Of a stretch of DNA of 64,000 nucleotides, positions 3,255 through 31,474 are shown one piece after another; position 1 is the first letter of the stretch, and each line of letters begins with the position of its first letter. The translations under genes were made by a program, and so were the position numbers. The stretch is taken from assembly GCA_025200525.1 (NCBI GenBank), contig CM045763.1, positions 85,340,131 through 85,404,130 of the forward strand, in the 5' to 3' direction. The DNA comes from Camellia lanceoleosa. Its lineage: Eukaryota > Streptophyta > Magnoliopsida > Ericales > Theaceae. The notes below the pieces were generated by a model. That model worked only from the letters and a program-made list of their open reading frames with translations. It was not told where the DNA came from and did no database searches.

Positions 3255-3499
3255 GGATTCTTGTTTGTCATTCGATCAATCACGGTGGTATTTTGATGAG
3301 GCATTGAAGAACAATCCAGGTAGTCGTTTTAAGTTAGATTTTGAAGATAACAAGTGTTTCAAAAGAGTGTTTGTGGCTTTTCATGCATGCATTGCTGATT
3401 TCAAATATTGTTGGTCATTGCTTTTTCTTGATGGAATATTTTTTAAAGGACGATACAAAAGAGTTATGCTTGCTGCGACGGGAAAAGATGGGAATGAAG
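3255..3499 (+). pseudogene. MULE-1 transposase, exon fragment upstream of intron
   Basis: The readable frame gives LSFDQSRWYFDEALKNN..., through FLDGIFFKGRYKR and ending GKDGNE, followed by GTAATTG. This is the start of the MULE transposase core; the Asp in FLDGIFFKG is at the position of the first catalytic Asp of the DDE triad. It aligns residue by residue with the MULE-2 copy (19030-19200 plus 21609-21648). The exon joins in phase 1 to the exon at 7039, restoring the conserved GFFPIAFAIVD motif. The N-terminal half (MuDR-type DNA-binding region) is absent because element A is inserted at 3254/3255. There is no usable start codon, so this is a gene fragment. Confidence 0.85.
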
Positions 3500-4384
3500 G
3501 TAATTGTAAATATATCTTATTTTATCTAAATATGTGAATTTTCTATACATGTAGGAATTGAGTGAATGTGATTTTTCTCTGACACTTTGAATTTTCTCTA
3601 GTTTTGGCCACTGTATGAATTTTCTCTAGTTGTGGTGTCACGACCCAAACCCGGCCCTATGGGTTTAGCAATCAGAATCGCCGAATCCGAAATTACCAAA
3701 GGCTCTTTGAACAAGAATACAATTAAACAGTCTGTATTCAAGGAAGCCAATACAGTAAATAACTAGTGTTCATTGAGCTGTGAAAATCTGTATGCCAAAA
3801 ACATTTTTCATGCATTCATACGGTTAAGACAGTCTGATCTAAACAATCATTTACAGACACTCAATATAGGGACTTAATCCCTACTCAACAGCACGATGAA
3901 CATTCGGTCTATACATTCGATTCGGTTATTACAAACAAGAAGACAAGACAAGAGGGGAAATACTAAAACACCCTAAGCCTTGGCAAGGTAGGCTCGGAAT
4001 CTCACAAAGGAGGCACATAGGTGGCTTGACAAGATCAAGTAACCCGACGCTTCTAGTCATGTCTGGTGCTCAGTACACCTACATATATATATGAAGTGAG
4101 CTAAAGCCCGTGAATAATATAATGCGTAAAGGGTTAAGAATAAATGTCCTTTCAAGATTAAAACCAGTCATTTGATCGGTTTATCGGTCATTCGGTTTGT
4201 GGCTCATATTTGAGCCATATGATCATTCGATTAAAATAGTGATATGTGGTACATCCCTTGGCGTAAAGATAGTAAGCGGTAGGTCTTAAAAGACCGGGTC
4301 TTATGAACCAAACAATAAATGATGGCCATCGAAGCGATCTGATAAGAATGGCGATATGATACCAATTCAGAGAAACGATCTGAT

Positions 4385-4716
4385 ACTTGTGGATTCAAGA
4401 GGTGGCTCCTTTGTAGCACTTAGTTCAGTAGATTCTAGAGGTGGCTCGAGTAGCACTTTGCTCCTTATCGAATCTAGGGATTCAAGAGGTGGCTCCCCTG
4501 TAGCACTTAGCTCAGTAGATTCTAGAGGTGGCTCGATGTAGCACTTTGCTCCATATCGGTAATACCGAGTGGCCATCACAACAAGAATGTAGTGGTTCCC
4601 AACTTGGGAACCGACAGAGATCTCTCACACAAGATGTGGATTCAAGAGGTGGCTCCCACTGTAGCACTTAGCTCCGTAGATTCTAGAGGTGGCTCCCAGT
4701 GTAGCACTTTGCTCCA
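4385..4716. repeat. Minisatellite in element B (GATTCWAGAGGTGGCTC)
   Basis: Seven or so copies of GATTC(A/T)AGAGGTGGCTC are each followed by a GTAGCACTTAGCTC or GTAGCACTTTGCTC spacer. The two spacer types alternate, giving a higher-order unit of roughly 100 bp. A non-repeat piece with CAACTTGGGAACCGACAGAG lies between blocks at about 4560-4625. Confidence 0.8.
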
Positions 4717-5253
4717 AATCAATAAACAGTAGGTGCCAATGATGCCCTAGTACAGTTCAGAATATAACTCATACGTTCATTTAGTATACAATGTCGATTC
4801 GATGGGCAATTCAATTGATACTTGATGTCAATTCAAGAAATTGATTCGGTGAACAAGATCAATTCAAGAACGGTGTCAATTCAAGAACGATTGATTCGAT
4901 TCGATTGATTCGATAAAATAGACGGCTCAATAAGGTAAGGTTCAATAAAGTAAGCGATTCGAAGATAATCATTTTTGGACATATCTTTACACAGTTGTTA
5001 CTCACAGAGTTCTGGGCTACAGTATGCTAGAGCGTCTCCTCGGTAAGCCAACCCTACACAGTATACAGGATGAACACACACTAAGCTATACAGTTGGGGG
5101 AAGATTAATAACTTACCCTAATTTGCCTCGGTGTGTTCTACATCTATATCCTCATTAAGATGCCTTAAACTAGGCCTAAGAATGCCTAGAATGGGATGAG
5201 GATGCAAAGATGCACTTAGAAAGTACTTTACAAAATTTGCTGAAAATAAGGGC

Positions 5254-5566
5254 CTCGCTCGAGCGAGCCTTCCTTCGCTCGAGCGAGATTCCAAAATCAA
5301 AGGCTTCGCTCGAGCGAGAAATCCTTCGCTCGAGCGGTCTGATGAAACAGTAAAAATACTGGATGCTGAAATTTTACGCGCGATGCTCGCTCGATGCTCG
5401 CTCGAGCGAGATTTCAAAATCAAAGGGTTCGCTCGAGCGGTCTGATGAAACAGTAAAAGTACTGGATGTTCGATTTTTACGCTCGAGCCACCAATCCTTC
5501 GCTCGAGCGTGTCTCAGAGGAAAACATTGGTCGCTCGAGCGAGGAATCCTTCGCTCGAGCGAAGAA
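5254..5566. repeat. CGCTCGAGCG palindrome array in element B
   Basis: About a dozen copies of TTCGCTCGAGCGAG or TTCGCTCGAGCGG-type units. A longer block, GGTCTGATGAAACAGTAAAA.TACTGGATG, is repeated at 5335 and 5438. The array is equivalent in position to those of A, C and D. Confidence 0.8.
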
Positions 5567-6645
5567 GCCAAATCTGGAATTTCCAAATTTGCCTTCCTAG
5601 CTCAAACCAAGCATTCTCAACTCAATTCTCGACCTCTTGGGCTCAAATTCTGGAGAATACATCCCAAAACAATGTACAACAAGTTTCAAAAGCCAATTTA
5701 TGAATTCAAGCCCCAAAGGTGAGTCAATTAAAACCATTTTTCAAACTCATTTTAAGAACAATCTTCAAACATGCCATGCATGAATTTTAAACCAAATTGA
5801 AGCTTCAAAACTTGCTCTAATGAGCTCAATAGTTGGGAAACAAAATGAAAACATGTACTTTAATAACAATATGAGCATGCATGTACAATTTACCATGAAT
5901 TCAACTTCAAAATGCACCAAAATGGCCATGCATGCATGAATTATGTTATGTTTTCAACATGTGAAGCTATTTCATGGCTTAATCCACCAAACTTGACATA
6001 AACCATGCAAGAACAAGTTTAATTCACAAACAAAGGGGTAATTACACTACCTTAGGTCATCATTCACAAGATTAGAAGCTCAATTAAGCAATTACCCTTC
6101 AATTTCTTCAAGTATCCAAGCCAATTTCCTAGTTGATTTCACAATTCTCTCATTTCTCTCTCTCTAGTCGGTTCTCTCTTCACAAAATGGCTGATAGAAA
6201 AGTGTTTGCCTAAGGTATATCAATGCTCAACATGATATAATACAAGGCCCACTAACAATGGCAAAACGGTAATTACGTCAAACTCTTTAATTAGCTCATT
6301 TTAATCCAATTTAATCATACCAAATCGATTTTCAATTAAATATACCATAAAACCACATAAATTATGGTAATCATGAAACACTAAACAATTTTCAGTTTGG
6401 TCGCCGATAAGGCCTTCAATTTGCAGTTTAAACGTAAACACACGAACAGATAATTAAACAGTCGAACAGATAGAAATGTAATACAATAGGCACACTCAGT
6501 CAATTCGGTTCCAGTTTTCAATCGATGCAAGATTTTGATTGATTCAATTATCAGTCATAAGCAGTCTCAATTTCACAGTAATCAGTAATAAATCAGTGGT
6601 CAGTGATTAATCAGTAATCGGTAACGAGGGTTGTTACATGTGGCC

Positions 6646-6990
6646 AGTGTGAGAATTTTCTCTGGATTTTGTTCAGTGTGTGAATTTTCTCTGGATGTTG
6701 TCATTTTGTAAATTTTGTCTGTAGTTGGTCACTAAGTGAATTTTCTCTGGATATTGTCACTAAGTGAATTTTGTCTGGATGTTGCCAATGTGTGAATTTT
6801 ATCTATAGTTGGGCACTAGGTGAATTTTCTCTGGATATTCTGATTGTGTCAATTTTCTCTAGATGTTGCCAATGTGTGAATTTTCTCTGGAGTTGGGCAC
6901 TAAGTGAATTTTGTCTGGAGGTTGCCAGTGTGTGAATTTTCTCTGGGTGTTGGTAGTGTCAAGTTTCTCTGGTTGTTTATTGTTCTAATT
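6646..6990 (+). repeat. MULE-1 motif array, intron (GAATTTTCTCTGG)
   Basis: About 14 units of (TG)TGAATTTTCTCTGGATGTTGCCA occur at 20-35 bp spacing with alternating spacers (GTTGGGCACTAAG, GATGTTGCCAGTG). The array is continuous with the copies left of element B at 3570-3630, so B landed inside it. Confidence 0.8.
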
Positions 6991-7038
6991 TTCTCTGCAT
7001 GTGTATATCTAATATGCTTGTTCCTATTTGTTTTGTAG

Positions 7039-8091
7039 GTTTTTTTCCTATAGCTTTTGCGATTGTTGATGTTGAGAATAAAGACAATTGGTGTTGGTTC
7101 CTTGAAAATTTATGTGAAGTATTGGGATCAGAGAGGGTGATAAGTTTCATATCAGATCGACATTGTGGTATTGTGGAAGGAATTGCTAGGTTTTTCCCTA
7201 ATTGCTTTCATGGATTTTGTCTTGAACATCTAAAGAGAAATTTGAGGGATAAGTTGTCATGTAGAAACACAAATTTGGTTAGGGAGACGAATGTGTCCAA
7301 GTTTTCAGAATGTGCATATGCACCAACAAAGGCATCATTTCATTTCAATTTAAATGAATTAAAAAGTGAGGGAGGAGACATTGTGAGTGTTTTCTTGAGA
7401 AGTTTACCATATGAAAATTGGAGTGATGCATATTTTGAGGGGAAACGTTATGGTGAGATGTATTCAAATGTTGCTGAGTCATTCAATTCATGGTTACGAG
7501 ACGCTCGACACTTGTCAATAACAAATTTGGTGGACATGATATGGTTGCAAATCATGAATATAAAGTCTGATAGGAGGTTGCTCTCTAGTAAATGGAATAA
7601 AGTTTTCTGTCCTCATATGGATAGTGTATTGGATAAGGCTTTCTTGGATGGGAGGACATGGAATGTGAGTTTATCATCTGATAATGTCTTTGAAGTGCAT
7701 TGTTTTCCTTCGGTTATGGTTGATCTTGGGTTGAGAACTTATTCATGTCGAAAATGGAAAATAAATGGGTATCCTTGTCAACATGCTGTTTACTGCAATT
7801 TTTAGGAGTGGAAAGAATTTGAATTCATTTGTTGAACCATTTTTTCATGCTGATATGTATCGTTAAGCATACTCGTTTTCGATTGGCCTAGTTCCAACTG
7901 TTGAAAAACCTGTGTGTAGCATTGATGATGCTATTATTTTACCTCCATTGAGTAAAAGACCAACTGGAAGGCCAAAAAAGAACAGAATTTCTTCTACTGG
8001 AGAGTTTAAAAGGGTGATTAAGTGTAGTCGTTGTGAGAGTATTGGTCACCATAATAAGAGAACATACAAGGAACCTTTGTTAAATAGTTGA
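7039..8091 (+). pseudogene. MULE-1 transposase, main exon (MULE domain, SWIM, CCHC)
   Basis: The exon encodes the core of a Mutator-like transposase, which would bind and cut the element's ends. Visible motifs in order: GFFPIAFAIVD, the second catalytic Asp in FISDRHCGIVEG, the C2H2-like FCLEHLKRNL, the catalytic Glu in NVAESFNSW, then a SWIM region YSCRKWKINGYPCQHA whose first Cys is Tyr. The frame breaks at about 7788 (one extra T in GCTGTTTAC). The next frame continues RSGKNLNSFVEPFF, has an in-frame TAA at 7864-7866, and then gives the usual C-terminus TVEKP...RPTGRPKKNRI and a zinc knuckle KCSRCESIGHHNKRTY with its last Cys changed to Tyr. The natural stop is TGA at 8089-8091. All DDE residues are retained, but the gene is dead through the frameshift and stop. 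Confidence 0.9.
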
Positions 8092-8186
8092 GGATAATAC
8101 ATTTTATTGATTGAATAATACATTTGATGATTACTTTGTGTATTTTGTTTTGTGAAATATATTTTTTGGACAGTGTACATAATAAT

Positions 8187-8960
8187 ACTTATCAAATTCA
8201 TCCAGAGAAATTTTTCAATAGCAGTGAAATTGTGCATTGTGTTTGTTGATACACACTATAGGCAGTGGGTTTGTAATACCAGTCAAGTTCATCCAAAGAA
8301 ATTTGCCTATAGCAGAGAAAATTCTCTGTGCAAATTGTTTTGAAGCTTCAAATTCATCTAGAGAAATTTGCCAATAGTAGAGAAAAGTACTGCGTGCATT
8401 GTGTTTTTTGAATTTGATGATTGTTTTGTACTAACACAGTGCATTACAGATTGCATGATCATATAGGCACTCTCTTTGGCACGATACGAGTTAAATTTCT
8501 CTGTGAATTTCTGGTAACTTCATACCAGTCAAATTCATCTATAGAAGTTTGCCAATAGAAGAGAAATTTACTATAGGTATTGTGTTTGTTGAAATGTGCA
8601 TTGTGTTTTGTGAGGTCCAATTCATCCAGAGAAATTTGCTAATAGCATTGAAAATTACAATATGCATTGTGTTTGTTGAAACATACTATGGGCAGTCTAT
8701 TTATAATACCAGTCAATTTCATCCAGAGAAATTTTCCACTAGCAGAGAAAATTATCTGGGCATTGTATTTTAAAGCTTTAAATTCATCCAGTGAAATTTG
8801 CCAATAGTAGAGAAAATTACAGTGCGCTTTGTGTTTTTTGAATTTGATGATTGTTTTGTACCAACACAAAGCATTACAGATTATATGATCATATAGGCAT
8901 CCCCTTGGGACGATACGAGTTAAATTTTTCTGTGAATTTCTGGTAACATCATACTAGAGA
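8187..8960. repeat. 430-bp tandem repeat carrying the MULE-1 motif
   Basis: A block with TTCATCCAGAGAAATTTGCC, TTGTGTTTTTTGAATTTG and CATATAGGCAnnnnCTTnG(G/C)CACGATACGAG occurs twice, offset by about 430 bp (CATATAGGCA at about 8463 and 8892). Each copy holds five or six AGAGAAATTT or AGAGAAAATT motifs. It lies between the converging 3' ends of the transposase and ULP-like genes. Confidence 0.8.
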
Positions 8961-11234
8961 AATTTCTACAAACAATTTTCTCTATGTGGATTGTGTTGAC
9001 AATCACTATAAAAATAAAAAAAAATTTAACCATTGATAGGTATGAAATTTACATTAGTCAAAAAAGGATATATACATATATGTCAAGAATCATCATTCCT
9101 TCAATGTATGAAAAAACAAATTGAATGGTTAATTCTAATTATATTGTATACATTGTCTTCCTTTCACTAGTTTCACTATTACACTTTTGGTTCTTCTTCT
9201 GGAGGTATTTGAATTAGTTCTGTCCATGACCGGCCAACTTCGGTCACAAATCTCTCTATGATTTCTGCCCTCATTAACCTTATGTCTTGTGTGGACAATT
9301 TCGAGCTGATAAGTTCATGCTTGCTATATTGTCTCATTATATAGCATACAAAGAGACTACAATCCAGACTGCATACAAATTATAGGTATAGTTAGTTTTA
9401 AGAAACATTCAAATCAGATTATCTTATTTATAGATGTTGTATGAAACTTATGAATCACTGTCTTGTTGTGGAGCATTGTTGACATACTCAAAGTCGTAAT
9501 TTGTGTTTTGTGAGTTTATCAATTTGAAAGAGGGTTGTGATTGTGCCTCTCTTTTAAGGCAAGATTTCAAAAAATTATCCACATAATCTTGCTGCAAAAA
9601 AATAATTTTTAAATAACAGAGAAATTTACAGACAAATCAATGGGATTCTATGAAAATTATCATCACATAAACATTATGATGGATTAGAGAAATTTGCACT
9701 CGTTACCAATTGTTTTGCATCTTTGACATATTTGTCTTCTATATCATCCCTCTTTGGCCTTAGTGAGTTGTAGAACCTCTATAAATTGTCTTTTTTGTCC
9801 AGGACAAGCAAGGTCCAGTGATTTCCATGTGTTGACTTCTCATTACCCCCAGTATTTATTGGGAAATGGATGCTGTTTCAACATGCTTGTCAAATAATAA
9901 GACTCAGAAAGTTTGATTTTCCGTCATCTTGATGAAATTCTATGGTAAGAGAAAATCAAAAAATGGTTATGTTATAAAAAAATTGAAATGAGAGGAATTT
10001 AAGAAATATACACACAGAGAAATTTTAAATGCACACAACTAGCCAAAAAAAATTAGACTAGTGACACAACTGGTTTCAAGAAGTATCTTAACAAGAGAAA
10101 GTAGTAAGTAAATTCCAGAGAAAATCAAATAAAAGAGTAGTAACATACTAAGCTTATGGATGTGAAAAAAAATGAAGTTGGTTATTGTTTTTCTCTGCTT
10201 TGGTCAGCAAAAGGATCTCTCCATAGTCATCAATGACCTGAAAAATATCATTTATAATTGTAATATTGGTTTATAAAGGCTGATAGAACATTACAGAGAA
10301 ATTTTGATAAAAGACTTACATTGTTGGCAATTTCTTTTTGCTTTATTAGGTTTCCAATGTATGCGAAGGTAATGAGATTCAACTCACTTGTCCAGATTAA
10401 AGCCTTACAAGATGACAAAGAAGGGATTTAATAGTTGTTAATGCAATATAAGTTAGTAAATTGTTGTTTGTTATCTTCTATTTTATTTGTTGTACTACTC
10501 AAGTCTAGACACATTTGATATGTGCTACAAGATGTCTTTTACATGATCTTTTATCAATCTTGAAACCAGTAGAGTTTGTGAAAAAACCCAAGATTTTCTG
10601 ATGCTTGTTGGTTGAGGCAAGACGTACGCATCAGCACAAAGTACTTCTTTGTCTTTTGTGGTTTGCTCTGGTTGCTTTGTAGCTTGCTTTGAACCTCTAG
10701 TTACTTTCGCAACTTTGGGATATTGAAATTCTGGATCATGTTGCTTTTCTTTCTTTTCTTTTGCCTTTAAATTTTTTATCATTGATGTAGGATCTTTTTT
10801 GACTGTAGACAGTGAAAATATTAGTAAAAGTGAAATTTCTCTGAAGTAACAGATGATATTTCAATATGTAAATTTATTTGATTCAATATTTTCCAGTTAC
10901 CATAGACATTCGTCTTTTGTTTTGGTTGTTCTTTGTGTGCCATTTGTTCTTGTTGGGTTGTTGGTTGTTGTTCCACTTGCATTCCAACTATACACAGTGA
11001 AAATCAAACAAGCCCTAAAAATTGAATAAGAAAATAGACAGAGAAAATCAAATAAGTAGTAGAAATCAATAGAAATAAGCAATAGAAACTAATGTGTTCA
11101 GAAAAATTTAACTTCCAGAGAAAATTATAATAAATAGAAATTTCTCTGAGTTATGTTGACACAAGGACATAACTTTTTGTGGCTCAAGATTTTCACTGAC
11201 CTTGTGGTTGAACTTGTGTCGGTGTTTGGTAAGG

Positions 11235-11900
11235 TTATGTTGCTACTTGGACGAATAGTTCTTGAATTTGTTCATACAATTTAGCATTTTCAGTTTCAAG
11301 CTCCGAAATTGAATACCTCAACTTTTGAATTGTTTTTGTATCATCTTCTTTTTGAACCTCCAACATCCTTAGTTTCATTTGGATTGTGCTGTCTCTTTCT
11401 TGAAGTTCTGAGTTAAATGATGTCAAGGTTCTTATTGCAATATCCTTTTCTGCAAGTAATTCATTCTAATTTCTCTCTTCTTCTATTTTAGATTTAGAAA
11501 GTGCCTTTAGTCTTTGATGTAGATTAGCAATTTGGGCGTCATTTGCTTCCTCAGATTCTTGAGGCTGATGCATTATTGAGCCACAAATGCTGTCATGATG
11601 TTGGTCCATCGGCTCATTATGTTCTTCTTCATCATTTTCCTCATTGTTTTCTTCTTGCTGTTCATTTTCTTCTTTGTCTTCTTCACTGTCTTCTTCTTTC
11701 TGTTCATTTTCTTCTTTTTCTTCTACTTCTATTTCTTCACTTTCTTCTCTGGCTTCTGCTTCTCCACTGCTTGCTTGATCTTCTTGTCCATTGCTAGCTT
11801 TGTGTTCTTCTATGTTGCCTTTTGCTTCTTCATTCTTCAGATGAATCTTCTAATGTCTCCTTGAATTTGACAATTGCCTTTTTTGATTCTTTCTTCTTCT
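11235..11900 (-). pseudogene. Acidic and coiled-coil middle of the MULE-1 ULP-like protein
   Basis: On minus, about 130 residues dominated by Glu (EEKEENEQKEEDSEED type) are followed, after one in-frame stop, by heptad-rich sequence QKLRYSISELETENAKLYEQ. MULE-2 has a coiled coil in the same place (26049-25690) but with unrelated detail. The plus-strand reading of this stretch (Phe/Leu-rich) is only its shadow. Confidence 0.6.
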
Positions 11901-12842
11901 TTTTACCAAGACAGAATTCCTCTGATGGGTTTTGAACTAGCTCCTTGTTATCTATCTGTAACATGAGACACTTTTATTAGAGAAATGTTACAAAATTCAC
12001 TGAGAGAAAAAATTCAAATAAGGAAAATAAAATTCATCTAAATGATACTAATGGGAAACAAACTTTAGAGAAAATTGTATGGGCCAGAGAAAATTACAAA
12101 CAAGGAGTTAATTTTATGAAGCACTGAAAATTACAGACAAGGAACATAATTTAGATATCAGAGAAAATCAATCAAGGCATATAAGTTAATGTTTTACTAT
12201 AATTGTGTCAGAGAAATTTGGATTCCAGAGAAAATTCATTAGAATGGTAGAAATAAACAGTGTTAATCAAAGATGCAAGGCACATAAGTTATGGGCCAGA
12301 GAAAATTACACATAAGGAGAAACAATTTTATGGGCCAAAGAAAATTATGAAACAACCAACATAATTCAGATATTAGAGAAAATCAATCAGGGCATATAAG
12401 TTAATGTGTTACAATTGTGATCAGAGAAATTTGGATTGCAAAGAAAATTGATTACAATGGCAGAAATAAACCAGTGGTAACCAAAGAAGAGAAAATTGAT
12501 AGTTCAGAGAAAATTGATCTCAATCAATCAAGGCACAAGGAGGGAAACAAACCAGTGGTCAGAGAAATTTTGGAATTTCACTGAGATTTCAGTGGTGATA
12601 GAAATCTAACCTGTCGAGGTGCAAGAGAGTGGACTGGTGTCTTCTGCAACTGTTTCGTCAAGCTTTGCAGGTTTCACTTTGTACTTCCGAGTCAATGATA
12701 TTTGCATGTTCACATAGCCAATACTGTGATAAAAATTAAAGTAATTAAATTTTGCTAAACACACAAATTTGTAAGTATAATAACTGTAAATTTGAATAGA
12801 TATTATACTTACCAGCAATACAATGACACACCCCGTAACTTT

Positions 12843-13325
12843 TTATGGAGTTTTGTGCAATGCTATAATAGAATCAATCAATCTTGATGCGATTGCTTCT
12901 GGCCAATCATACTGTTTCATTGATTCAAGAGGTTCCACATACTTTATAAAAACCCACCCTATTGAATTTCCACTTGTTGCAAAAAATAGGGTGAGACACA
13001 AGTACAATGTAACAATGATTCCTACATCTTTGAAGTCAGTTGGTTGCTTGAATTTCATTACTTTGAGCAAGGCATTTTTAAGAACATGACCAGTGGGCTT
13101 TATGTCCTTTTGGAATCTTCTCCTTAAGAATACAGATTTTAGCTTTTTAGAGTATCTTAATGACATGACTACTTTACCTCCTTGCAAACAAAAAATCAAG
13201 GTCATGTCATTGGTTGTAAAGGTCAAGTTCTTTTTACCAACTATGAATGCTTTTGTTTTTTCATTGTAACATTGGATTATTGCAACTACATCATCATCAG
13301 ATTTCCTAGATTTCCTTGGATCCAT
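12843..13325 (-). pseudogene. N-terminal conserved exon of the MULE-1 ULP-like gene
   Basis: About 160 residues, MDPRKSRKSDDDVVAIIQ... to IIALHKTP. It aligns with the equivalent MULE-2 exon (29866-29015) through D(M/V)TLIF..(L/I), the RRFQ/RRFR block and IGW(V/A)F...(V/L)EPLE-like motifs, ending just before a shared VTGCV...LL/GTAAGT splice site. It resembles the DUF1985-like region found next to ULP domains in plant MULE proteins; I cannot confirm that assignment without a profile search. The TAA replaces a residue that is Glu or similar in MULE-2. Confidence 0.65.
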
Positions 13326-13805
13326 CCTTCAAATGGTTAGAGCTTGGATCAAATACCAGAATGGGGTCTTTTGAAGCTCTACAAGTTGGTTTGAATTGAA
13401 TTTAAGTGTTTGAAAAAAGGAGACAACAGATGAGAGGTTGGATCGATATTGAATGTTGTAGTGAGCTCTCTTTCTTTGGAGTTTAACAGGTTTTTTCCCT
13501 TTCAGCTTGAGTCTTTTGAAGTTGGGGTACTCATCTTGATGCTAGTTGTTTCATCACCTTGGACTTGTGTGTTTTGGCAAGGAGTTTGTGGTGTTTTGCT
13601 GCTAGTTTTTGATCTTAGATCATAAGAAGACTGAGAGAGTTTCTGTTTCTTGCTTGGTGTTTCCGGTGTTTTGCTTGTGGTTTTTGATCATAGATCATAA
13701 GAAAACTGAGAGAGTTTATGTTTCTTGCTTGGTGTTTCCGGTGTTTTGCTGCTTTTACGTTTTGTCATTTCTAGACAATGATGAAAACATACAGACGTCA
13801 ACATT

Positions 13806-16470: not shown

Positions 16471-16479
16471 AACCAAATT

Positions 16480-18130: not shown

Positions 18131-18152
18131 TAATTGATTGTAGATTTCAAAA

Positions 18153-19200: not shown

Positions 19201-21608
19201 ACACATTCAAACCCGCCTATGGGTTTAGTATCAGAATCGCCAAGAATCCGAGATTATCAAGGCCCGCTAATAAGAAGACAGTAATATAGAGTACAGGGGC
19301 ATGACGGAAGCCAAAACAGTAAATAACAATGTCCAATGAGCTGCGACAATCTGTATGCAAAAGGACTTCTCATACATATATATATACTCAGTACAGAACA
19401 GTATGCACAATATTTACAATCATTCAGAACAGGGACCAAATCCCTATAAAACAGTACAGTACAGTGCTATACCTATACAGGTATACAAAACAGATACAGA
19501 GACAAACGGGGGAAATTAAAACACCCCTAAGCCATAGCTTGGCAGGCTCGGAACCTCGCAGTGAGGCACAGTAGTTGGCTTGACAAAAAGGGGAGTCTAA
19601 CCCTCGCTCCTAGCTCCGGTCTGGTGCTTGAACACCTACATATATATATAAACAGTGAGCTAAAGCCCAGTGAATAACATAATGCGTAAAGAGGTTAAAA
19701 ATGAATGTTCTTATAGTAATGGAAACAGTTCATTGATTTAGTATAGCAATCATTCAGTCATAATAGTCATATGTGGTACATCCGTTAGCATAGTAGTACA
19801 GTAAACAGTAGGTCTTAAAAGATGCTAAAGATGGCCATCAATCAGTAAACAGTAGTGGTTCCAACAAGGGAACCGACAGAGATCTCTGTAACAGTAACAG
19901 TAAATTGTAGTTGCTAAGGATGCCACAATACAGTTCAAAATATAGGACATACATTCATTCGATTAACAGTATCAGTTCAGTTAAACAGTCAGAAATATTC
20001 ACAGTTGAACATATCTTTACACAATTGTTACTTACAGAGTTCTGGGCTACAATTAGACTAGAGCGCGTCCCCAGATGCCAACCCTACACAGTTTACAGGA
20101 TGAACACACACTAAGTTACACAGTTGGGAAAACAATAACTTAATCCCTAATTTGCCTCGGTGTGGTTCTAAATCAATATCCTCATTAAGATGCCTTAAAC
20201 ATACCCTAGGAATGCCTAGGATGGAAGGAGGATGCAAAGTTGCAGTTAGAAACACTTTACAAAATTTTCAGAAAACAGGGGTCTCACTCGAGCGTGGCTT
20301 CCTACGCTCGAGCGGACATGCAGACAAAGGAGCTCCGCTCGAGCGTGACTTCCGTCGCTCGACGGGCGCTCGACCCTCGCTCGAGCGTGAGACACAAGTC
20401 CTCGCTCGAGCGTGAATTCTCTTGCTTGAGCGGACTGTAAGCTCATGCAAAGTACTAGATGCACGCTTTTCACGCTCGAGCGTCACTTTACTCGCTCAAG
20501 CAAAAGGCATGATCACAGAGTGTACGCTCGAGTGTGGAGTTCCTCGCTCGAGCGTGGGTCCAAAATCTGGAAATTTCAGATTTGAACCTCAAGCTCAAAA
20601 CCAAGTTTTAATGCATCAAATTTGATCCTCTTCGGTTAATTTTCTGGAAAACACTTCAAAACCCATAATATTACATGTTTCAAAGGTCAATTTGATAAAT
20701 CAAAGCCCAAGGGTATTTCAATTAAATCCAATTTCAAACCAAATTTTATAAACAAGGTAAACATGTAACATGTATGAACTCAAATCATTTCAAAGCTTCA
20801 AATGAAATGACGAACTCATGGTCTATAATATAAACATCATGAACTCATGGTCTATAATATAAACATGAACATGCATGCAAGATTTCCATGAAATCAAACC
20901 TCACAATGCAAGGATAAACACATGCATGCATGAATTCTAACTCAAATCAACCTATGAAGCTATTTCATGACTCAATCCACTAAATTTGACATGAATCATG
21001 TGAGAACAAGCTCAATTCATAAACAAGAGGGTAATTACACTACCTTAGGTCTAAAATTAGAGGTATAGAGGCTCAATGTTGCAAGTCTTCCTTTAATCTT
21101 CTAATTTCTAAGCAATTCTCTCAACAACAAATCAATTCTCCCCCCTCTCTCTCTCTCTCTTGGTCGGTTGAGACAAGGAATAAGGCTAAAGAAATGTTTT
21201 GTTTAGATGTATAATAAGGCTCAAGTATGTGTTGGCTAAGTGGCCCACTCAATGGCATCATGGTAAATAAGTCCAACTATGCAATTTAGCTTAATTTAAT
21301 CATACTAAATCACATTGTGGTTAAATATGCCATAAAATCACATTAATTCTAATGATTATAAAACACTAATCAATTTCAGGTTCGGCCGCCGATAAGGCCT
21401 TCGATTTGTAGTTTAAACATAAAAACATGAACAGATAATCAAACAGGCAACAGATAGAAATGCAATTTAACTAACATATTCAATCAATTTAGTTCCAGAT
21501 TTCAGTCAGTCAGTTCAATATTTCAATCAGTTCAATTACCCATCATAATTAGTCTCAGTTTAATAGTAATCAGTAATTAATCGGTAAGCAGTGGTGAGGG
21601 TTGTTACA
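19201..21608 (+). mobile_element. LTR-like element C (solo LTR type)
   Basis: It starts ACACATTCAAACCCGCC (the TG of the terminus is lost or mutated) and ends GGGTTGTTACA. The 5-bp flanks GGCAC (19196-19200) and GGCAC (21609-21613) match perfectly, and removing the insert plus one GGCAC restores the transposase frame KGKYKGTLLTA. Sub-regions match B: ACCTACATATATATAT, GGTTCCAACAAGGGAACCGACAGAG, GTTACTTACAGAGTTCTGGGC, a CGCTCGAGCG array, then GGTAATTACACTACCTTAGG. No retroviral ORF. Confidence 0.75.
20284..20560. repeat. CGCTCGAGCG palindrome array in element C
   Basis: Ten or more (CT)CGCTCGAGCGTG units, some decayed (CTTGCTTGAGCGG, TCGCTCAAGC), at 20-30 bp spacing; same location relative to the element ends as in A and B. 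Confidence 0.8.
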
Positions 21609-22857
21609 GGCACCTTGTTAACAGCTACAGCAAAGAATGGGGATCAAGGTAGATATTACTATAGTTTATTGAAAAGTAACAAGTTACTTATTCTCAGAGT
21701 AACATGTTACTTATTTTTAGAGTAACATATTACTGTTATTCAGAGTAAAAATCTACTATATTTGTCATTTTCATTTAATATACTTACTAATTGTAAAATG
21801 TTATTTTTCAGGTTTTTTTTCCTTTGCAATGGCAATTGTCGATACGGAGACTACAAACAATTAGGAATGGTTTTTTATGCATTTGTCGAATATATTGTTA
21901 GATGAAAGACCAATTACCTTCATATCTGATCGGAACGCTGGACTTTTGAAGGCTTTACCCAAGGTTTTACCTACTGCTTACCACTATTTTTGTCTCCAAC
22001 ACTTGAAGGCCAATTTCAGGGATAGGTTCTCCAATCCATGTTTCAGCAATACTTTCAGGAGTAGAATAGTTTTTTTGTTTTCTTCATGTGCTTATGCTCC
22101 GACAGTGGGATGTTTTAATCAGTGTTTGAAAGAATTACAAGATGAGGGAAAAAGGATCGTCTGTAGGTTTCTATCCAATTTGCCCTATGACAAGTGGACT
22201 AATGCATATTTTAAAGGACAAAAATATGATGAAATGCACTCGAATGTGGCGGAGTCTTTCAATTCATGGATCCGTCAAGCTCGTCATTTGCCCACTATGA
22301 AGATGATTAATTCAATTAGGTTGAAGATCATGGATTTGATATCAAAAAGGAGAGAACAAGCTAAGAAATGGAATACTTTTCTTTATCCGAAGATGGATTC
22401 AACATTAGTAAATGCTCTTAAAAGTGAAAGAACTTGGTTGATTAGTCATTCAAGTGATCATGTTTTTGAGGTTTAATCTCGGCCATCAGTTAGCGTTGAC
22501 CTCTTGAATAAAACTTGCTCATGTTACCAATAGCAATTGAATAGATTTCTTTGTGCTCACGAGGCGACCGCTATCCAAAAGAGTGGAGGTGATTTGTATG
22601 CACATGTGGAACCATTTTATTACACTAGCAAGTTCAAAGCTTGCTAGGCTAAGTTTGTTTATCCACTACCCACTGTTGAGAAACCTCCTGTAGTTATGAA
22701 TGATCTTGTTGTCCTTTCTCTAATTTGAAAGAAGCCACCTGGTAGGCCAACGAAGAATAGGATTCCATCTAGGGGTGAGAAGATAAAACGAGTATAGTGT
22801 GTTAGATACGAGAAGTACGGTCATAATAGGAAGACTTGCAAGGAGACATTGCCATGA
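21609..22857 (+). pseudogene. MULE-2 transposase, core and C-terminus
   Basis: After element C the exon resumes (21609-21648), then a 163-bp intron (21649-21811; donor CAAG|GTAGAT, acceptor TTTTTCAG) at the same site and phase as in MULE-1. The main exon begins GFFSFAMAIVDTE, with a TAG soon after. The second catalytic Asp is in FISDRNAGLLK, the C2H2-like motif is FCLQHLKANF, and the catalytic Glu is in NVAESFNSW. The SWIM motif TCSCYQ is broken by a TAG where Trp is expected (QLNRFLCAH follows). Further stops precede the tail RPTKNRIPSRG and a knuckle VRYEKYGHNRKTCKE lacking one Cys. Stop TGA at 22855-22857. Confidence 0.9.
21655..21760. repeat. MULE-2 motif variants inside the transposase intron
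   Basis: AGAGTAACATGTTACTT, AGAGTAACATATTACTG and AGTAACAAGTTACTT: palindromic variants of AGTAAAATTTTACT with a changed centre, all in the 163-bp intron. Confidence 0.75.
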
Positions 22858-23154
22858 AAGACATTATTGCTTTTGCAATAAAAGTATGAAAATAACGCAG
22901 TTCTTCTATGATAAATAGTCCATAGCAATAATAGTATAGTCTTTTAGACTAGACTTGTAAGGAGACATTGCAATAAAAGACATTTTTACTATGTTCTTGA
23001 ATGGTTGTTTATCCAAGTTTCTGATTTGCTTTGTGGTTGAGTTTGACATTTTAATATATATTTTTATTTTGGTTGAACAAGTTTCATGTAAATGAACTTA
23101 TAATGGAGTTTGTTTAGTAGGTGTGAAGGTTTGAAATGGCTGTGCTTAGCCTGT

Positions 23155-23610
23155 GCTTCAGAGTAAACTTTTACTTTATTGCAGAGTAAAATTTTACTTT
23201 TTCCAGAGTAACACATTACTTTCATTCACATGAAAGTAAAACTTTACTGCCTTTTAAAGTAAAAATTTACTATGTTGTTGAATCATTGTCTATGGTTGTG
23301 ATGAGCCTGTGGTTTCATAGTAAAATTTTACTTTATTTCAGAGAAAAATTTTACATTTAGAGTAAAATTTTACCTTATTTCAAAGTAAAATTTTACTATG
23401 TTGTTGAATTGTACTCTATGGCTGTGTTGAAGCTGTGGTTTTACAGTAAAATTTTATTTTATTTCATAGGAAAATTTTAGATTCAGAGTGTAACATTTTA
23501 CTCTTATTTCAGAGTAAAATTTCAATTTTATGTAGAGTAAAATTTTACTTTTAAATTCAAAGTGTAACATTTTACTCTTATTTCAGAGTAAAATTTTACT
23601 TTATTTCAGA
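23155..23610. repeat. MULE-2 motif array downstream of the transposase
   Basis: About 17 copies of AGAGTAAAATTTTACTTTATTTC or variants. A longer unit, ATGTTGTTGAAT..T..TCTATGG(T/C)TGTG, recurs at about 23273, 23400 and earlier, so the array grew by tandem duplication of motif-containing segments. Confidence 0.88.
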
Positions 23611-26156
23611 CAGTATGTTAGTCCTTTAGAAAAACATTTCCAACCTGCACCAAAATTTACCACAATACACAAACTCCCCTGATACTCATCATGCAATCTT
23701 TGTGCAAAAATAAACTAACAACACAACTACATATATCATCAAAGATACACAAGTATAACCTGTACCATTGTATTCTATCCATAACAACATTCATTCCTAG
23801 TCAAAATAATATCATGTTATAATAATGTATTAATCACCAAATCACAGTAAAATTTACTAGAACAATAGACATAGCATGTACTATCTAATACTCTTTTAGT
23901 ATTCTTTCACTTACAATTACTTTTTTACCATTCTTTCATTTACAAAAATTGAAATTACATACATCATTCACAATAGTTCCCAAAAGTTGTCCACATCGTC
24001 GTCCTTGAGGTCTTATCTCTTGACTATTTTTCTTTTGAGGTTGAATTGTTCCTCACTCCATGCTTTTGGATAATCATTCAAAAATTGATGCACTATTGAT
24101 GCTCGAAAATTATTAATTTCATCTTCTTCCATAGAATTTGAAATAGGCTCATCTCTTATGATTTGGCGCATGATATAACATACAATAATTCCGCAATCAA
24201 CACTGTTAATAAAAATCAAGATCATGTTAGATTTAGTCAAATTTCAAAACTACCAATTTAAGCATGTAGTAGTAGCGTGAAATACTTACAATGTTGGGCG
24301 TTGTTGTGGACTATCTTCATCAAAACCAAGTTTGCAAACTTTCTTGTACCTCTCTTCCTTTTGTTGGCCAACTTATTCTCCACATATGTTATCTAACATC
24401 ATTGCATAATTGTTTGGTCACGATTAAATACAAGAATAAAACACAGTAAAAATATACTGTTAATATGATGCAAAGCACTACAATCTGTTTTGCATCTTTA
24501 AGGTAAGGATCTTCTCTGTTGTCTCTTGGCCTTAAAGAATTGTAATGTCTTTACTCATCAAATTCAGTGTCCAATACAAGCAGTGTCCAGTAATAGGGTT
24601 TTTCTTCCTTCTTGTTCCCATTGGAGTTCATGCAAAAGTGAAGGAATCTGTATCCACTTAAATCTTGCTCAAGCACTTCGTTAATTAAATGATTTCTCAA
24701 ATCTCTATAACCCCATTTCACTAATGACTGCATTTAAACATATAAGAGTGTCATGTGTCAAGTTGTGTTGGTGACACACTGTATGAGTTGTCAATCTTTG
24801 GCAAACCAAATAGTAAAAATTAACTCTAAAAAACAACACAATGTTACACTAAATCATAGTAAAATTTTATCAATTCAAACTAAAAACAAATTGATGGCTT
24901 ACCCAATAAATGCTTGAGAAAAAGAATGACTTATTCTTTTCTGACTTCTTTGCTTGTTGCTTAATCTGAAGCATTTCTACAAAGTTGTCAATGACCTACA
25001 AAAACAAAAATTAATTAAATATATGTTAATAAAATGAACTATTTTTAGTTATTGTAGTGAACACTAGTCATTGAAAATTGTATGGGCACTTACATTATTT
25101 GCAGTATCACCATCTCTCAGAATTGCATTCATATCATACAATGTAACATATACTCCATTTCCTGTGCCGGACCATATGATTACATTAGTCATAAGGTAAA
25201 AAAAATGTTGATTAACACGTTGCAGTTTGATAACAATAAAAATCTGTTGTTTGATAAAATTAAAATGGTCTTACTTTGTGATTTCCAAATTGTAAATCTT
25301 GCTCAGTAGACACTTATCATTCTCATCAAACAATTTGCATATTGCAGCCTTATCTGGAAACAAAACCCTTTCAACTGGCTTTGATTAGCTTAGAGGCAAG
25401 TTGTCAACACAAATCACTTTATTTGATATCACTTCAATTGCTTATTTTGTGGCCTTTTTTTTTCTTTGCCTCTCTTGTTTTACATTCAAAATCAGATATC
25501 TCTTTTTTCTTCCTCGCCTTGATTTTGATTTTCTTGACCATGGATGTTTGCAATGACTTTATGACTACATGTGTTTCTTTCAATGTAGGCTGAATCATAA
25601 AGTTTTGCTCTTGTTCTACTTCTTTAGCATGTGGCATTTCTTTAGAAGCAAAAGCTTGGGTAGCCGCATGAACTACATTTTTTTTCAATCTGTTCAACTA
25701 ACTGTTTATTTTCATATTTGAGTACTTCAAACTCCTTTCTCAGTTTCTCCATTTCTTTCTCTGTATTGCTCATCTTTTCCATCATTTATTTTGTTTTTGC
25801 CTCTTGATCCTCTTGTATTTTTTGCATTGTTTCCCTCATTTTCTTTAGTTCTTCAATCAATGCCATATTCTCACTTTTCAATCTCTTGTTTTCTTTTTGA
25901 ACTCGTTCTAATTTCCCAAGATCAATGAAGTCCTTCAAAGGTTGCTCATCTCCTAAAGCTTCAACTACATGATCTTCATCTTTTTTAGTCTTCAAATTTT
26001 CCTCTATGTCAAATACATCTTCTTCCTCATCATTTGCAATGAGTTTCATTTCTTCTCTGAAAAATGGGCTTTAGTTCATTGTAATTCACCTGTATTTGAA
26101 AAATAGAAAAAAAAAAAAAAAAAAAAAAAAGTCAGTAATGAAGCAAACTTTAACCA

Positions 26157-26225
26157 CCAGAGTAAAATTTTACTCTGTTTCAAAGTAAAAGTTTACTCTG
26201 ATTTTAAGTAAACTTTTACTTTGTT
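26157..26225. repeat. MULE-2 motif cluster in a ULP gene intron
   Basis: Three copies: AGAGTAAAATTTTACTCTG, AAAGTAAAAGTTTACTCTG and AAGTAAACTTTTACTTTG. They lie just left of element D and right of an A-tract of about 27 bp at 26105-26131. Confidence 0.8.
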
Positions 26226-26834
26226 CAAAAATGACATTTTATTATGTAAGTATAATTTTAAGCAAAGTGAACCAATAAGGCTGAGATTGGAAAGATGATA
26301 CCTCTTCTGTCATGACCCGAACCCGCCCGTATGGATTAAGGTCATAACCGACCAGTAATCAAGGGATTACCTACGGCCTCAAACCTAATTAAACATATTT
26401 CAACAGAGTTAAGGGGCCAAGACGAAAGCAAACTTGAAAATTTTGTCTATAGAGCTGTGCTTACATAGCATGTCAAAACATTTTGCATGTACTCATTAAT
26501 AACCTACATCAAAAGGGAAATAACATAGAATTTTTACACAACAGGATCATTCAAGTCATAGTCAGCCAAACTAAAAGCTTATGTACATGGTGATCTAACA
26601 TTTTCACCAAAGTAACAAAAGGAAGACAAAAGAAACAAACAAGTCTCGTGCGTGAGACGTTTGGGTTGACTCCTCAAAACTTTGACTTTTTCTTACATAC
26701 TTCACTGAGGTTGGGTTTGGACATCTCTTGGCTCACCTACATATACATGAATGAGAGTGAGCGAAAGCCCAGTGAATAATATCAAATAAAGAAGATACAT
26801 GAATCATATTCAAAACAGATATATCAAACTGCCT

Positions 26835-27140
26835 TAGGTCCATTCATGTTTCTATTTGGTACATTAAACGGCTTCAAGCTTGATCATATCAAACAGCCTC
26901 TGGCCCACTTTGTCCTTGACAAACGATCTCAGGCCCAATTCATCCATGTCAAACGGCCTCGGGCCCAATTTATTCATGTCAAACAGCCTTGGGCCCAGTT
27001 TCACTCTTGTTGAATGGCCTTTGGCCCAATTATTCATATCAAACGGCCTTTGGCCCAATCATTTATGTCGAATGGGTTCATGTCAAATGGCCTTTGGCCC
27101 AATCGTTCATGTCAAACGGCATTTGGCCCAATCATTTGTG
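26835..27140. repeat. Minisatellite in element D (CGGCCTTTGGCCCAAT)
   Basis: About ten units of CATGTCAAACGGCCTNGGGCCCAATTNATT, period about 30 bp. The GGCCTTTGGCCCA part is nearly palindromic. Element B has a different minisatellite at the corresponding place. Confidence 0.8.
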
Positions 27141-27557
27141 AAATGCGCATTTCGTACTTGAGATCATAATCACATCATAATCATAATTGTAATCCAACGG
27201 CCTTATCCAATCATATAGTGTAACGAATATTTGTCCACAATTCAAATTAACAAACTTATGAAACTCAAATAGGAGTAAACAATTGGACAAATAGCATACT
27301 TCAAAATATTTTTACTAAGATATTACTCACAGTGTCCTGCCGGTGGATTCGCCCTTGTGCTCGACTCTACACATTACATAACACATATTGGGTTACAAAC
27401 GGTTTAATCCGTTCTTAGTTTATTTCTTTCTCTTAGGTCTCTTTCTTATCCTTTTAGGTCATATACAAAGCTCAATGCATGCCTAAGAGTGCTTAGAAAT
27501 GGAAGAGAACGGAAAATGAAACTCAAAATAACTTTTTAAAATTTCTGAAACAGGGTT

Positions 27558-27785
27558 TTCCGCTCGAGCGTGGGTCTTCCCGCTTGAGCGGACCCCTTTA
27601 GTCTGCAAAAATACTGGTTGCCTCATTTTTGCACTCAAGCGTGATTTCGGACGCTCGAACTAAGAGCCAAAACATGTGACTTTGTGCTCGAGCGTAACTC
27701 TCCCCGCTCGAGTGGGCATCAATGTTTGCAAAACTTATGGGAGCTAACATTTTACACTCGAGTAGCGCTTTCCCCGCTCGAGCGG
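27558..27785. repeat. CGCTCGAGCG palindrome array in element D
   Basis: About nine CCGCTCGAGCG-type units, several decayed to CCGCTTGAGCGG or CACTCGAGTAG. Confidence 0.75.
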
Positions 27786-29014
27786 ACATGCCGAATTCTG
27801 AAATTTCTAGAATTGCGTTTGAAGTTCAAACTTAGCATTCAAAGAGTCTAAAGCTCATGTTCTTGATATAAATTCATGGAAATATTTATACAATATGAGG
27901 ACATAAGAAAATTGAGTCTAATTTGTCCAAAATCACAATTCAATTCCCAAATTATTTCACATTTTTCTTGACAACCCATACCAACTTCATATCTTCAAAA
28001 CTCATGCAAATTAATTTCCATAGCGTTTTGAATTTTACATGCATGTGAAATATATGCTTCTTTTTCAACTTAAATAACACAATTGATGCTCATCTTCATC
28101 AAACTCTATATTATCATGTTTGCATGTGCCAAATAGCCTTCAATTCTTCCTATAATACATGTTTGTACTCAATTATGCAAGCTCATGATAATCCTTTACA
28201 TGCATGCACATTCAAGCTTCAAATTCATCAAATTCAACTCAATTTATGTTCTTGATTACCATCTAACTTTGAATTCACAAAATTACAAACTCAAACTCAT
28301 GAATTTGTGCTTAATTACTCACCTAGGAGCTCCAATCTTTCAAATTCTAACTAGTTCTTGAGCTAATCCACTTAATTCTCTAATTTCCTTGCAAAATCTT
28401 CAATGTCGGCCACTTTTTCTCTCTAAATTCGGTTCACTCTCTCTCTAGAGTGCTATTTTAGATTTTTGAGCTCTTAAGGGATGAATATGAGTGTAATTGG
28501 GCTTTTATATACACACTTGGCTAATCAACTTAATCAAGGCCAATTAATTAAGCTTAAATTAATCAATTTAATCTAATTATTTTGATCCGAATCAATTTTC
28601 AATTAAATTTCACTATAAGTTCTAAAAATTACGCTAATCACAATGGCGTAATCAATTTCAGTTTCTGACGCCTCTACGGCCTTTAATTAAAATTCTAAAA
28701 TAGGAATTCAAATAGATTTTCCTACAGTGAACAGATAGAAATTCAAAAACACATATAATCATGTAATTATCACTCAAAATCATATCAAACATATAATCAC
28801 AATCATAATTAAGATCAATTAGCATAACACGCGACAAGGTTATCACATCTTTGGGCTTTAGTGTTTGCAATGGCCTCTTCATTAGCTTTTTTCTCAACAT
28901 TGATAAGTTCCATCGAAAGAGCCTTGGATACAAATTTTTTCCTTCTGGTTGAATGAGGGTAGTGTGCTTGCATAACCAGTACTATAAAATAAAAAATCGA
29001 AATTAGTTAATTCT

Positions 29015-29866
29015 CTAAAGATAGATTGCGTAATATTTCAAGTAGTTTAATTTACTTACCAAAAGAAGAAATACACATCCAGTTACATTTTCAAGACTTC
29101 CTAATGAAGACTGGATTGAAGTAGTTAACGTGGATGCAACTGCAGTCGACCATGCATATGAATTCATCATTTCCAAATCTTCTACGAGGGCGACAAAAGC
29201 CCATCCAATTGTTAGACCGGTTGTTAGTAATAACAAAGTTGCCATAACAAATAAACACATTATTCGTGCAACATCCTCAACATCAACTGTCGTTATACCT
29301 TCCAATGCATCTCATAATGCCTCTCGCAAACTCTTTACGAATTTTCTTGACATATTACGAAACCTTCTTTGCACAAAAGGTGATTCTTATTTCTTCTCAT
29401 ATGAGATGTCTACTTTTTTCGTTCCCGATTTTATCCCAAAAATCAAAGTAACGTCACTGTCCCGTATGTCACACGTTTTCCCCCCAAGCTTAAATCCCTT
29501 TGCATGAAAGTCATAAGACTTGATCACATCCATGACATTATCGTCAACTTTCTTGAACTTTTTCAACACCACATCTTCTTTCTTCCAAAAAGATTTGAAT
29601 AAGATCCCAAAATGTGTTATCTCGAGGGCAGTAATGTGTCTTTCAGTGAACCTTGTGTCTCGCATTAGGTTTATCAATGAAACCATTTGACTATATTGTT
29701 TCACATAGTTCTCCATCTCCCGTATTCCATGTACAATATTCGACTTTGAAGGTTTTCTTGTTGAAGGCATTGGATTGTTTTCATGAGAGCCTTCATCCTC
29801 ACTAGGAGAGCGCTTTCTCAGTCTCATTGATGCAAGCATAAAATCATCATCACATGCATCATCCAC
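29015..29866 (-). pseudogene. Conserved N-terminal domain of the MULE-2 ULP-like protein
   Basis: Two frame-compatible pieces separated by stops. The first runs MDDACDDDFMLASMRLRKR ... RHITALEITHFGILFKSF ... DSDVTLIFGIKSG. The second runs GITTVDVEDVARIMCLFVMATLLLLTTGLTIGWAFVALVEDLE ... NVTGCVFLLL, then GTAAGT. The order is the same as in MULE-1. The hydrophobic MCLFVMATLLLL run resembles a buried helix in MULE-1 (LYLCLTLFFA), so it is probably structural, not a membrane anchor. Confidence 0.65.
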
Positions 29867-29999
29867 ATTGCTTATGGATTTTCAACTGTGCTTTTTAGGG
29901 AGTTTCTTCTTTTCTACAACTGTTGGTGGAACTTCAAAATCATCATCATCATCACCATTCCTACGCTTGCTTCTAGTAATAACCATTTTTGAACACTAA

Positions 30000-30235
30000 A
30001 AGGTTTCCCTGTATCAACAGTGTAACATTTTACTTTAAACAACAAAGTAACAAAACAATAAGCACCAAAGAAAATGAAGAATAATGCAACAAATCAAAAA
30101 TGCAAAAACATTGTAATGAAACAGTAAAGTTTTACAGTAAAAGTAAAATTTTACTCTAATTGGAAGTAAAATTTTATTTTGATTGGAAACAAAATTTTTC
30201 TTTGATTGGAAGTAAAATTTTACTTCGAATAAGCA
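30000..30235. repeat. MULE-2 motif cluster upstream of the ULP-like gene
   Basis: At least six copies: GTAACATTTTACTTT, AGTAAAATTTTACTCTAATT, AAGTAAAATTTTATTTTG and AAGTAAAATTTTACTTCG. They begin directly 5' of the ULP-like start codon at 29986. Confidence 0.85.
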
Positions 30236-30344
30236 AAAACACCTACAAAAATTCTATAGCAAATAATATTGACAAAAGTACATTGCCATATTCAAGAAAT
30301 GATGGTGAAGAAACAGAGATAGTTCTAGCGAAGTATAGAAATTA

Positions 30345-31110
30345 CATATAAAGACCACAAAAACATATATTCAACAATATGCACTACAATCATATTTACG
30401 TACATAAATAGATAAATATATGCACAAATATATTCATATACAAATTGATATACACATTTATATAATAAGCAAAGGCTAGAGAACACATACAACAAGAAAT
30501 CAATAGGCATTGATGAAAGCATAAAAATACACAACATTGTAATGAAACAATAAAGTTGTAAAGTAAAATTATACTCTGCCTATAAGTAATACTTTATTCT
30601 CATTGAAAGTAAAATTTTACCCTGAATAATATACACTAGAAAATAAACCAAAAAAAAAAAAAATACATATATTGAACAATATACACTACAATCACATTCA
30701 CATACATAAATAGATACATATATACACACATATGTTCATATACAAATTGATATACACATTTATATAATAAGCAAAGGTTAGAGAACACGTACAGTAAGAA
30801 ATCAAGAGGCATTAATGAAAACATAAAAATGCACAAACATTATAATGAAACAATAAAGTTTTAAAGTAAAATTTTACTCTATCTATAAGTAACACTTTAC
30901 TCTCATTGAAAGTAAAATTTTACTTTGAACAATATACATTAGAAAAAAAATATATATATATATATTGAACAATATACACTACAATCACATTCACATACAT
31001 AAATAGATACATATATACACACATATTTTTATATATAAATTGATATACACATTTATATAATAAGCGAAGGTTAGAGAACACAAATAGTAAGAAATCAAGA
31101 GGCATTGATG
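30345..31110. repeat. 300-bp tandem repeat carrying the MULE-2 motif
   Basis: A unit with CATATATTNAACAATATRCACTACAATCA, a run of tata/caca dinucleotides, AATAAGCRAAGGYTAGAGAACAC and a pair of AGTAAAATTTTACYCT motifs recurs at about 30361, 30664 and 30956. The periods are about 303 and 292 bp; the third copy is partial. Confidence 0.85.
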
Positions 31111-31474
31111 AAAGATCCGCAATGTCATTGGCACCGTTACTCATGGCGGTGGTGAAAGGAGGGTTTTGAATGTTCACCATAGTAGTGGAATGAGGGTTTC
31201 GGATGCTACGACGATTGTGGGAAGTAGGGTTTCGGATGATAAGGTTTCTGAATCACACTTTTTCAGAGCAACAAGTTGGTCGATCAAACAGAGTGAGAAT
31301 GAGGGGGACAAACGGTTCATATTTGCCCATTTATATAGAAGGATATTTCAGTCTTTTGATCATATTTTTTTATTTAAGGGGCTTTTGAAACCATTATTTT
31401 ATTCCATGGCCTTCACACAAAAAAGGCCCAAGGAAGGGGCTTTTCACCAAAAATCTCTTTTTTTTATGGTGTAA

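Follow-up and report, generated by a model that had tools for sequence, protein, structure and literature searches.

Introduction

The closest described counterparts of the elements reported here are the Arabidopsis transposons VANDAL21 (Hiun) and VANDAL6 with their proteins VANC21 and VANC6 (Hosaka et al. 2017, PMC5735166), for which the available part of that paper gives the short DNA words YAGTATTAY and AGTTGTCC/AC. KI-MULE/KIU genes are VANC genes carrying Ulp1, and according to the accessible portion of PMC13317346 the KIU-bearing Vandals likewise act on private words. Here we analysed a stretch of 64,000 nt from Camellia lanceoleosa (GCA_025200525.1, contig CM045763.1, 85,340,131-85,404,130, forward strand; hereafter the window), which holds two Mutator-like elements (MULEs), M1 (3255..15530) and M2 (17331..31457, with two long terminal repeat (LTR)-like inserts inside), both given on the + strand in the orientation of vanA. 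Each contains two convergent genes, a Mu-like transposase gene (vanA) on the + strand and a multi-exon vanC-like gene on the - strand. We consider it probable that M1 and M2 represent two VANDAL/VANC-type families with private words, and that their own VANC21-like proteins bind these words and strip silencing from the copies of their own family.

Results

The M1 word, AGAGAAAATT/AATTTTCTCT, occurs in 30 exact copies in the window, 30/30 within 3590-14919, and the M2 word, AGTAAAATTTTACT, in 16 exact copies, 16/16 within 17826-30911. An unbiased k-mer count ranked each word top in the non-coding DNA of its own element. Sites were further collected with the patterns AGAGAAA[AT]TT and AGTAA....TTACT and with an iterated weight matrix, and the counts differ by set. 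By pattern, the non-coding DNA of M1 (5,036 bp) holds 55 M1 sites and no M2 site, and that of M2 (4,431 bp) holds 27 M2 sites (AGTAAnnnnTTACT) and no M1 site; the corresponding means of 1,000 dinucleotide shuffles are 0.22 and 0.02. A preliminary description had claimed that each element fills its non-coding DNA with its own motif, that the motifs do not cross over and that they are absent from the LTR-like inserts. This was borne out apart from a few unfilled introns given below, with no site of either word in 11,202 bp of inserts. Its further claim that the motifs stay out of exons holds for M2 (no site of either word in 4,715 bp) and needs one correction for M1, whose exons (4,237 bp) carry a single M1-type site, at 7234, and no M2-type site.

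Elsewhere the words are rare. The remaining window (34,379 bp) holds 3 M1-type sites and no M2-type site, and an AT-rich control of 22 windows of 500 bp with at least 68% AT, taken within 31471-64000, holds 1 M1-type site, no M2-type site and 3 half sites AGTAAAATT. Across the 3.0-Gb assembly, with the same letters reversed as control, AGTAAAATTTTACT was found at 11,981 places versus 89 (~135-fold) and CCAGAGAAAATT at 5,787+5,946 places versus 212+235 (~26-fold). Within the window, AT-rich DNA beyond M1 and M2 is not rich in either word.

The M1 word proved wider than first described, CAGAGAAA(A/T)TT, with 94 sites by weight matrix, and it is oriented. In the vanA intron (3532..7001, split by the insert at 3636-6638), 16/16 matrix sites lie on the - strand, in 28-bp steps. 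On the + strand are 14 of the 17 sites between the genes (8199..8988, internally duplicated as 8192-8535/8616-8964), 25 of the 28 in the vanC introns (9613..12575, with the highest density at 11974-12575) and 33/33 upstream of vanC (13808..15279); the strand of the word flips between the vanA and vanC genes. The sense strand of the M1 genes reads AATTTTCTCT at 16/16 vanA-intron and 25/28 vanC-intron sites, as would suit an RNA-level intron signal such as a pyrimidine-rich splicing element. We find this reading scarcely credible, given that the M2 word is palindromic and hence strandless, that intergenic DNA and the regions upstream of vanC and of M2 vanA hold dense arrays as well, and that gene-less derivatives of M2, described below, retain the arrays.

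The M2 word is palindromic; of its 32 neighbour distances below 60 bp, 19 equal 23 bp. Its arrays, listed without strand, lie upstream of vanA (17822..18132, 8 matrix sites), in the vanA intron (21671..21809, variant cores AGTAAC..GTTACT in 23-bp steps), between the genes (23158..23604, 16 matrix sites), in the large vanC intron (26157..26224, 3 sites in 23-bp steps) and upstream of vanC (30017..30928, 12 matrix sites). The stretch 21655-21760, to which the preliminary description had assigned the M2 motif, contains variants such as AGTAACATGTTACT and no exact AGTAAAATTTTACT. Comparison of the two elements revealed a vanA intron with the own word at the same codon position in both (10 M1 sites, 3 M2 sites), and own-word sites between the genes (11 in M1, 9 in M2), in the large vanC intron (9 and 3) and upstream of vanC (18 and 5). 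Upstream of vanA, M2 has 7 sites, and M1 lacks the equivalent stretch, which was cut away. Some non-coding pieces are not filled: over the small 3'-terminal introns of vanC, M1 has 4 sites of its word (594 bp) and M2 has 0 of its own (553 bp), and in both elements the short intron adjoining the N-terminal domain is free of the own word.

Such arrays might also arise without a reader protein, through short tandem repeats that spread neutrally in rapidly evolving non-coding DNA. In keeping with this, the arrays show local duplication, the LTR-like inserts hold a different saturated palindrome, and tests of word conservation gave no clear sign of selection. In tandem duplicates, word positions are identical at 336/351 in M1 (0.923 expected) and 136/152 in M2 (0.917 expected), where the expectation is corrected for picking intact words and the positions are not independent, because they are counted from both sides. 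Between M1 and a sister copy, identical positions number 523/540 in words, 4,159/4,462 in other non-coding DNA and 3,934/4,236 in coding DNA, the word identity being about the level given by choosing intact words. Compensatory change in the M2 palindrome, tested on 45/47 matrix sites after two weak ones were dropped, amounted to 2 complementary double changes, where shuffling gave 1.0 on average (P 0.27). We nevertheless judge neutral spread to be very improbable: a single core recurs amid unrelated flanks, M1 sites having little in common beyond it; the compartments match in two diverged elements; the word strand is fixed in M1; and the words are found again in other copies. Helical phasing is not clear: raw all-pair resultants at 10.5 bp are 0.10 for the 88 majority-strand sites of M1 and 0.25 for M2, with no peak at 10.5, and neighbour distances in M1/M2 give raw values of 0.44/0.49 at 10.5 bp and 0.36/0.59 at 9.5 bp.

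Beyond the window, 28 stretches of 8-10 kb each (L005-L032) were examined. None has at least 2 sites of both words; L018 has 13 M1 sites and 1 M2 site. The six arbitrary 10-kb stretches among them (L025-L030) contain the M1 word once in total and the M2 word 0 times in five and 9 times in L030, itself an M2-related piece. Two long copies were reached through word clusters. The family-1 copy (C1:3587500-3603500), 91-93% like M1 and lacking the intron insert, contains 57 sites of the M1 word and none of the M2 word, and the family-2 copy (L010+L021) has 55 M2 and 0 M1 sites. Furthermore, the two best family-1 vanC matches, picked by protein only (best among 46 scored of 19,808 candidates), carry 11 and 9 M1 sites and no M2 site in the 700 bp upstream, 20/20 of these on M1's strand. 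Another family-1 match, C1:4389704-4390660, sits within a listed M1-word cluster. The best family-2 vanC match (best among 66 scored of 9,971 candidates) is the family-2 copy already known from its word cluster; the word-independent copies are of family 1 only. As the preliminary description requires of other family copies, the motif recurs in one further long copy per family and in the two protein-picked M1-type copies.

Some word clusters belong to gene-less derivatives of ~0.65 kb composed of pieces from the two sides of M2 (0.4 kb on the left, 0.15 kb on the right), and others matched none of the eight vanA/vanC query proteins. In L006/L007 (G000 C1:2836000-2855800), five short gene-less M2 derivatives, all combining pieces from both sides of M2, stand in a row ~3.3-4.8 kb apart; a single insertion may have been multiplied there.

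The M1 vanC-like gene (9194..13768, - strand; tblastn of P0001 and P0002) has exons 12810-13768, 12608-12725, 11202-11958, 10902-10988, 10498-10803, 10320-10427, 9707-9939, 9451-9591 and 9194-9370, of which 12810-13768 encodes a PMD/DUF1985-like domain and 9194-9370 the ULP1-like end. Its M2 counterpart (24019..29986, - strand; tblastn of P0033 and P0038) has exons 29057-29986, 28848-28997, 25274-26067, 25091-25180, 24903-24995, 24476-24727, 24315-24392 and 24019-24207. The exon limits of both come mostly from protein matches to relatives. Both window copies are decayed, with frame breaks; by eye, M1 has DCS in place of the DCG of P0001, and M2 has YW in place of the HW of P0038. Among the matches listed, the relatives come from Camellia in 32/32 cases for M1 and 16/19 for M2. 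In each of the three protein searches the top hit was from Camellia. The relatives share a coiled coil and a PMD/DUF1985-like N-terminus that stays under the Pfam cut-offs; the longer relatives also have an ULP1 protease domain. DUF1985 scores 26.5 bits in P0035 (cut-off 35.1) and PMD 26.3 in P0006 (cut-off 34.9). Likewise under curated cut-offs are the E-values of the M1 window copy (PMD 3.1e-5, DUF1985 0.042), of the M2 window copy (DUF1985 0.025) and of P0035 (DUF1985 7.1e-6). No DUF287 was listed at E 0.1 in the vanC-like proteins; some VANCs are without DUF287. Peptidase_C48 matches P0001 at 2.3e-9 and P0038 at 5.8e-6, and the exons matching these two lie on the - strand of M1 and M2, so that an ULP1-like C48 gene stands opposite a mudrA-type gene, as in KI-MULE/KIU.

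In structural models of one relative per family, the top match over all other chains is VANC21 as crystallised with its target DNA. The vanC-like proteins are predicted to have a VANC-type DNA-binding fold, an ULP1 (SUMO protease) domain and a coiled coil through which they would dimerise. These models lend support to the earlier suggestion that the N-terminal domain is the word reader. Reading through the introns of 116 relatives, in search of words in other copies, gave one word-compatible place (P0020), and a pattern count of 51 gave none; scans of IMG/VR and GTDB gave no relatives. For P0116, a 1,077-aa protein, the listed domains include ULP1 (PF02902) together with MULE transposase.

The M1 vanA gene (3255..8091, + strand; exons 3255-3500 and 7038-8091) has frame breaks and matches MULE (1.4e-8), Transposase_mut (1.8e-7) and SWIM (3.5e-4). 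The M2 vanA gene (18153..22860, + strand; exons 18153-19203, 21609-21650 and 21812-22860) has stops, matches DBD_Tnp_Mut (2.1e-7) and is 86% identical to P0052 over 241 aa. Camellia vanA-like proteins including P0062, P0064, P0065, P0068 and P0070 share ~36-51% identity with M2; they point to further families, possibly with words of their own. The words might instead be binding sites of the transposase itself, somewhat like Spm TnpA sites, serving excision or element-specific activation. The gene-less M2 derivatives, which retain 0.4 kb of the left side, words included, and 0.15 kb of the right, would fit this, and both Spm TnpA and MuDR MURA are reported, in the part of PMC10398659 at hand, to reduce methylation. 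We hold this explanation to be unlikely, as the words lie in introns and intergenic DNA over 12-14 kb, not just near the ends, and the predicted VANC21-like fold belongs to the other protein, not to vanA.

The ends of M2 were placed by alignment to the family copy; a terminal inverted repeat (TIR) search restricted to the window gave scores within the random range. M2 is flanked by the 9-bp target-site duplication TTTTTTTTA (17322..17330 and 31458..31466), which is T-rich and therefore credible through the family copy only. That copy has a clean 9-bp duplication, TTATGACAT, on both flanks and 16-bp matching ends, GGGATTTTTGGTGAAA, followed by decay; family 2 thus shows degenerate TIRs and a 9-bp target-site duplication, as in VANDALs. 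The extent of M1 comes from blastn to L031/L032 (91-93% identity). Its left end was removed by an LTR-like insert, and its right limit, 15530, is the extent of alignment to another genomic copy and is not fixed.

The LTR-like inserts occupy 1-3254, 3636-6638 (M1 vanA intron, flanked by the 5-bp repeat TGTGG at 3631-3635 and 6639-6643), 19204-21608 (M2 vanA) and 26308-28847 (M2 vanC-like gene). Their own palindrome, CGCTCGAGCG, has 22 copies in the window, all within inserts (5, 9, 6, 2), and 298,766 places genome-wide versus 530 for the reversed control; we know of no reader of it. An AT-rich block is duplicated at 90% identity (46529-47732 and 47781-49010).

Discussion

We propose a putative model for the action of the vanC-like proteins, built by analogy with VANC21 and extending beyond the words and the predicted fold. 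An active copy would make the vanC-like protein, which would form dimers or bigger assemblies on the arrays of its own family, that is, on oriented sites in M1 and on palindromes spaced by 23 bp in M2. Methylation would be lost there and later across the element, and the element opened in this way could be expressed and move. The ULP1 domain might, as a guess, take SUMO off silencing proteins at the arrays. The M2 palindrome would suit such a reader, because the coiled coil would give dimers. The decayed copies in the window would now be targets, not makers, of the protein.

The M1 word CAGAGAAAWTT and the M2 half-palindrome ARAGTAAAATTTTACTYT are a single inserted T apart (edit distance 1), and letter-shuffled M1 words are equally close in 0.3% of cases with the flanking C and 2.8% with the core only. 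Given this likeness of the words, and an identity between M1 and M2 of 32% in the N-terminal domains versus 45% in vanA, comparison of these two families suggests that word and reader may descend from a common pair and have diverged. A doubtful but specific extension is a switch of word specificity, in which a VANC lineage exchanged single oriented sites for a site of two-fold symmetry that a coiled-coil dimer reads, leaving the sisters mutually blind. If true, one genome would contain two sister transposons, each with ~12,000 exact sites, and gene-less derivatives that retain the word. The M1/M2 pair offers a natural experiment on the co-change of protein and DNA word and on the contribution of the fused ULP1 domain, and pairs of word and domain may become tools for sequence-specific removal of silencing. 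In tea, the available part of PMC10673657 describes phased small interfering RNAs from 175 loci in plant-mobile-domain genes, which may be the host side of the same conflict.

As far as the accessible text of PMC5735166 goes, M1 and M2 resemble VANDAL21 and VANDAL6 in having a Mu-like transposase and vanC, in family-private short non-coding words that are often tandem and in a single orientation (here in M1), and in a vanC that varies more than vanA. The crystal fold of VANC21 is matched by models from both families. Unlike in the Arabidopsis VANDALs, the words are different and that of M2, 14-18 bp long, is palindromic; letter shuffles showed no likeness to the Arabidopsis words beyond chance (smallest P 0.097 of six comparisons). 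Unlike VANC21 and VANC6, the proteins here have a fused ULP1 domain and no listed DUF287, and the host is Camellia, not a member of the Brassicaceae. In the eudicot anti-silencing systems of Sasaki et al. 2022, DUF1985, DUF287 and Ulp1 have reportedly come and gone among VANCs; specificity is said to depend on the sequence of the word, its density and its helical periodicity, and non-autonomous copies are said to matter. In M1 and M2, by comparison, helical phasing is not clear. Spm TnpA and MuDR MURA are transposition proteins that act near element ends, whereas the M1 and M2 words occupy introns and intergenic DNA. Reduction of an element's methylation by its own protein, proposed here by analogy for M1 and M2, is common to both of those systems in the portion of PMC10398659 at hand. 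With KI-MULE/KIU, as far as described in the available parts of PMC13317346 and PMC2528002, they share an ULP1-like gene on the strand opposite mudrA in MULEs with poor or absent TIRs, and they differ in host and words. No report of these families came up among the papers listed on Camellia VANDAL/Mutator elements and Camellia anti-silencing or for the exact words, Sasaki et al. 2022 being left aside. The kind is already known from VANC21, VANC6 and, in the accessible part of PMC13317346, the Ulp1-carrying VANC genes; to it M1 and M2 add a pair of sister families whose words exclude each other and occur at thousands of sites in one large genome, from another order than Arabidopsis, the plant in which VANC anti-silencing was worked out.

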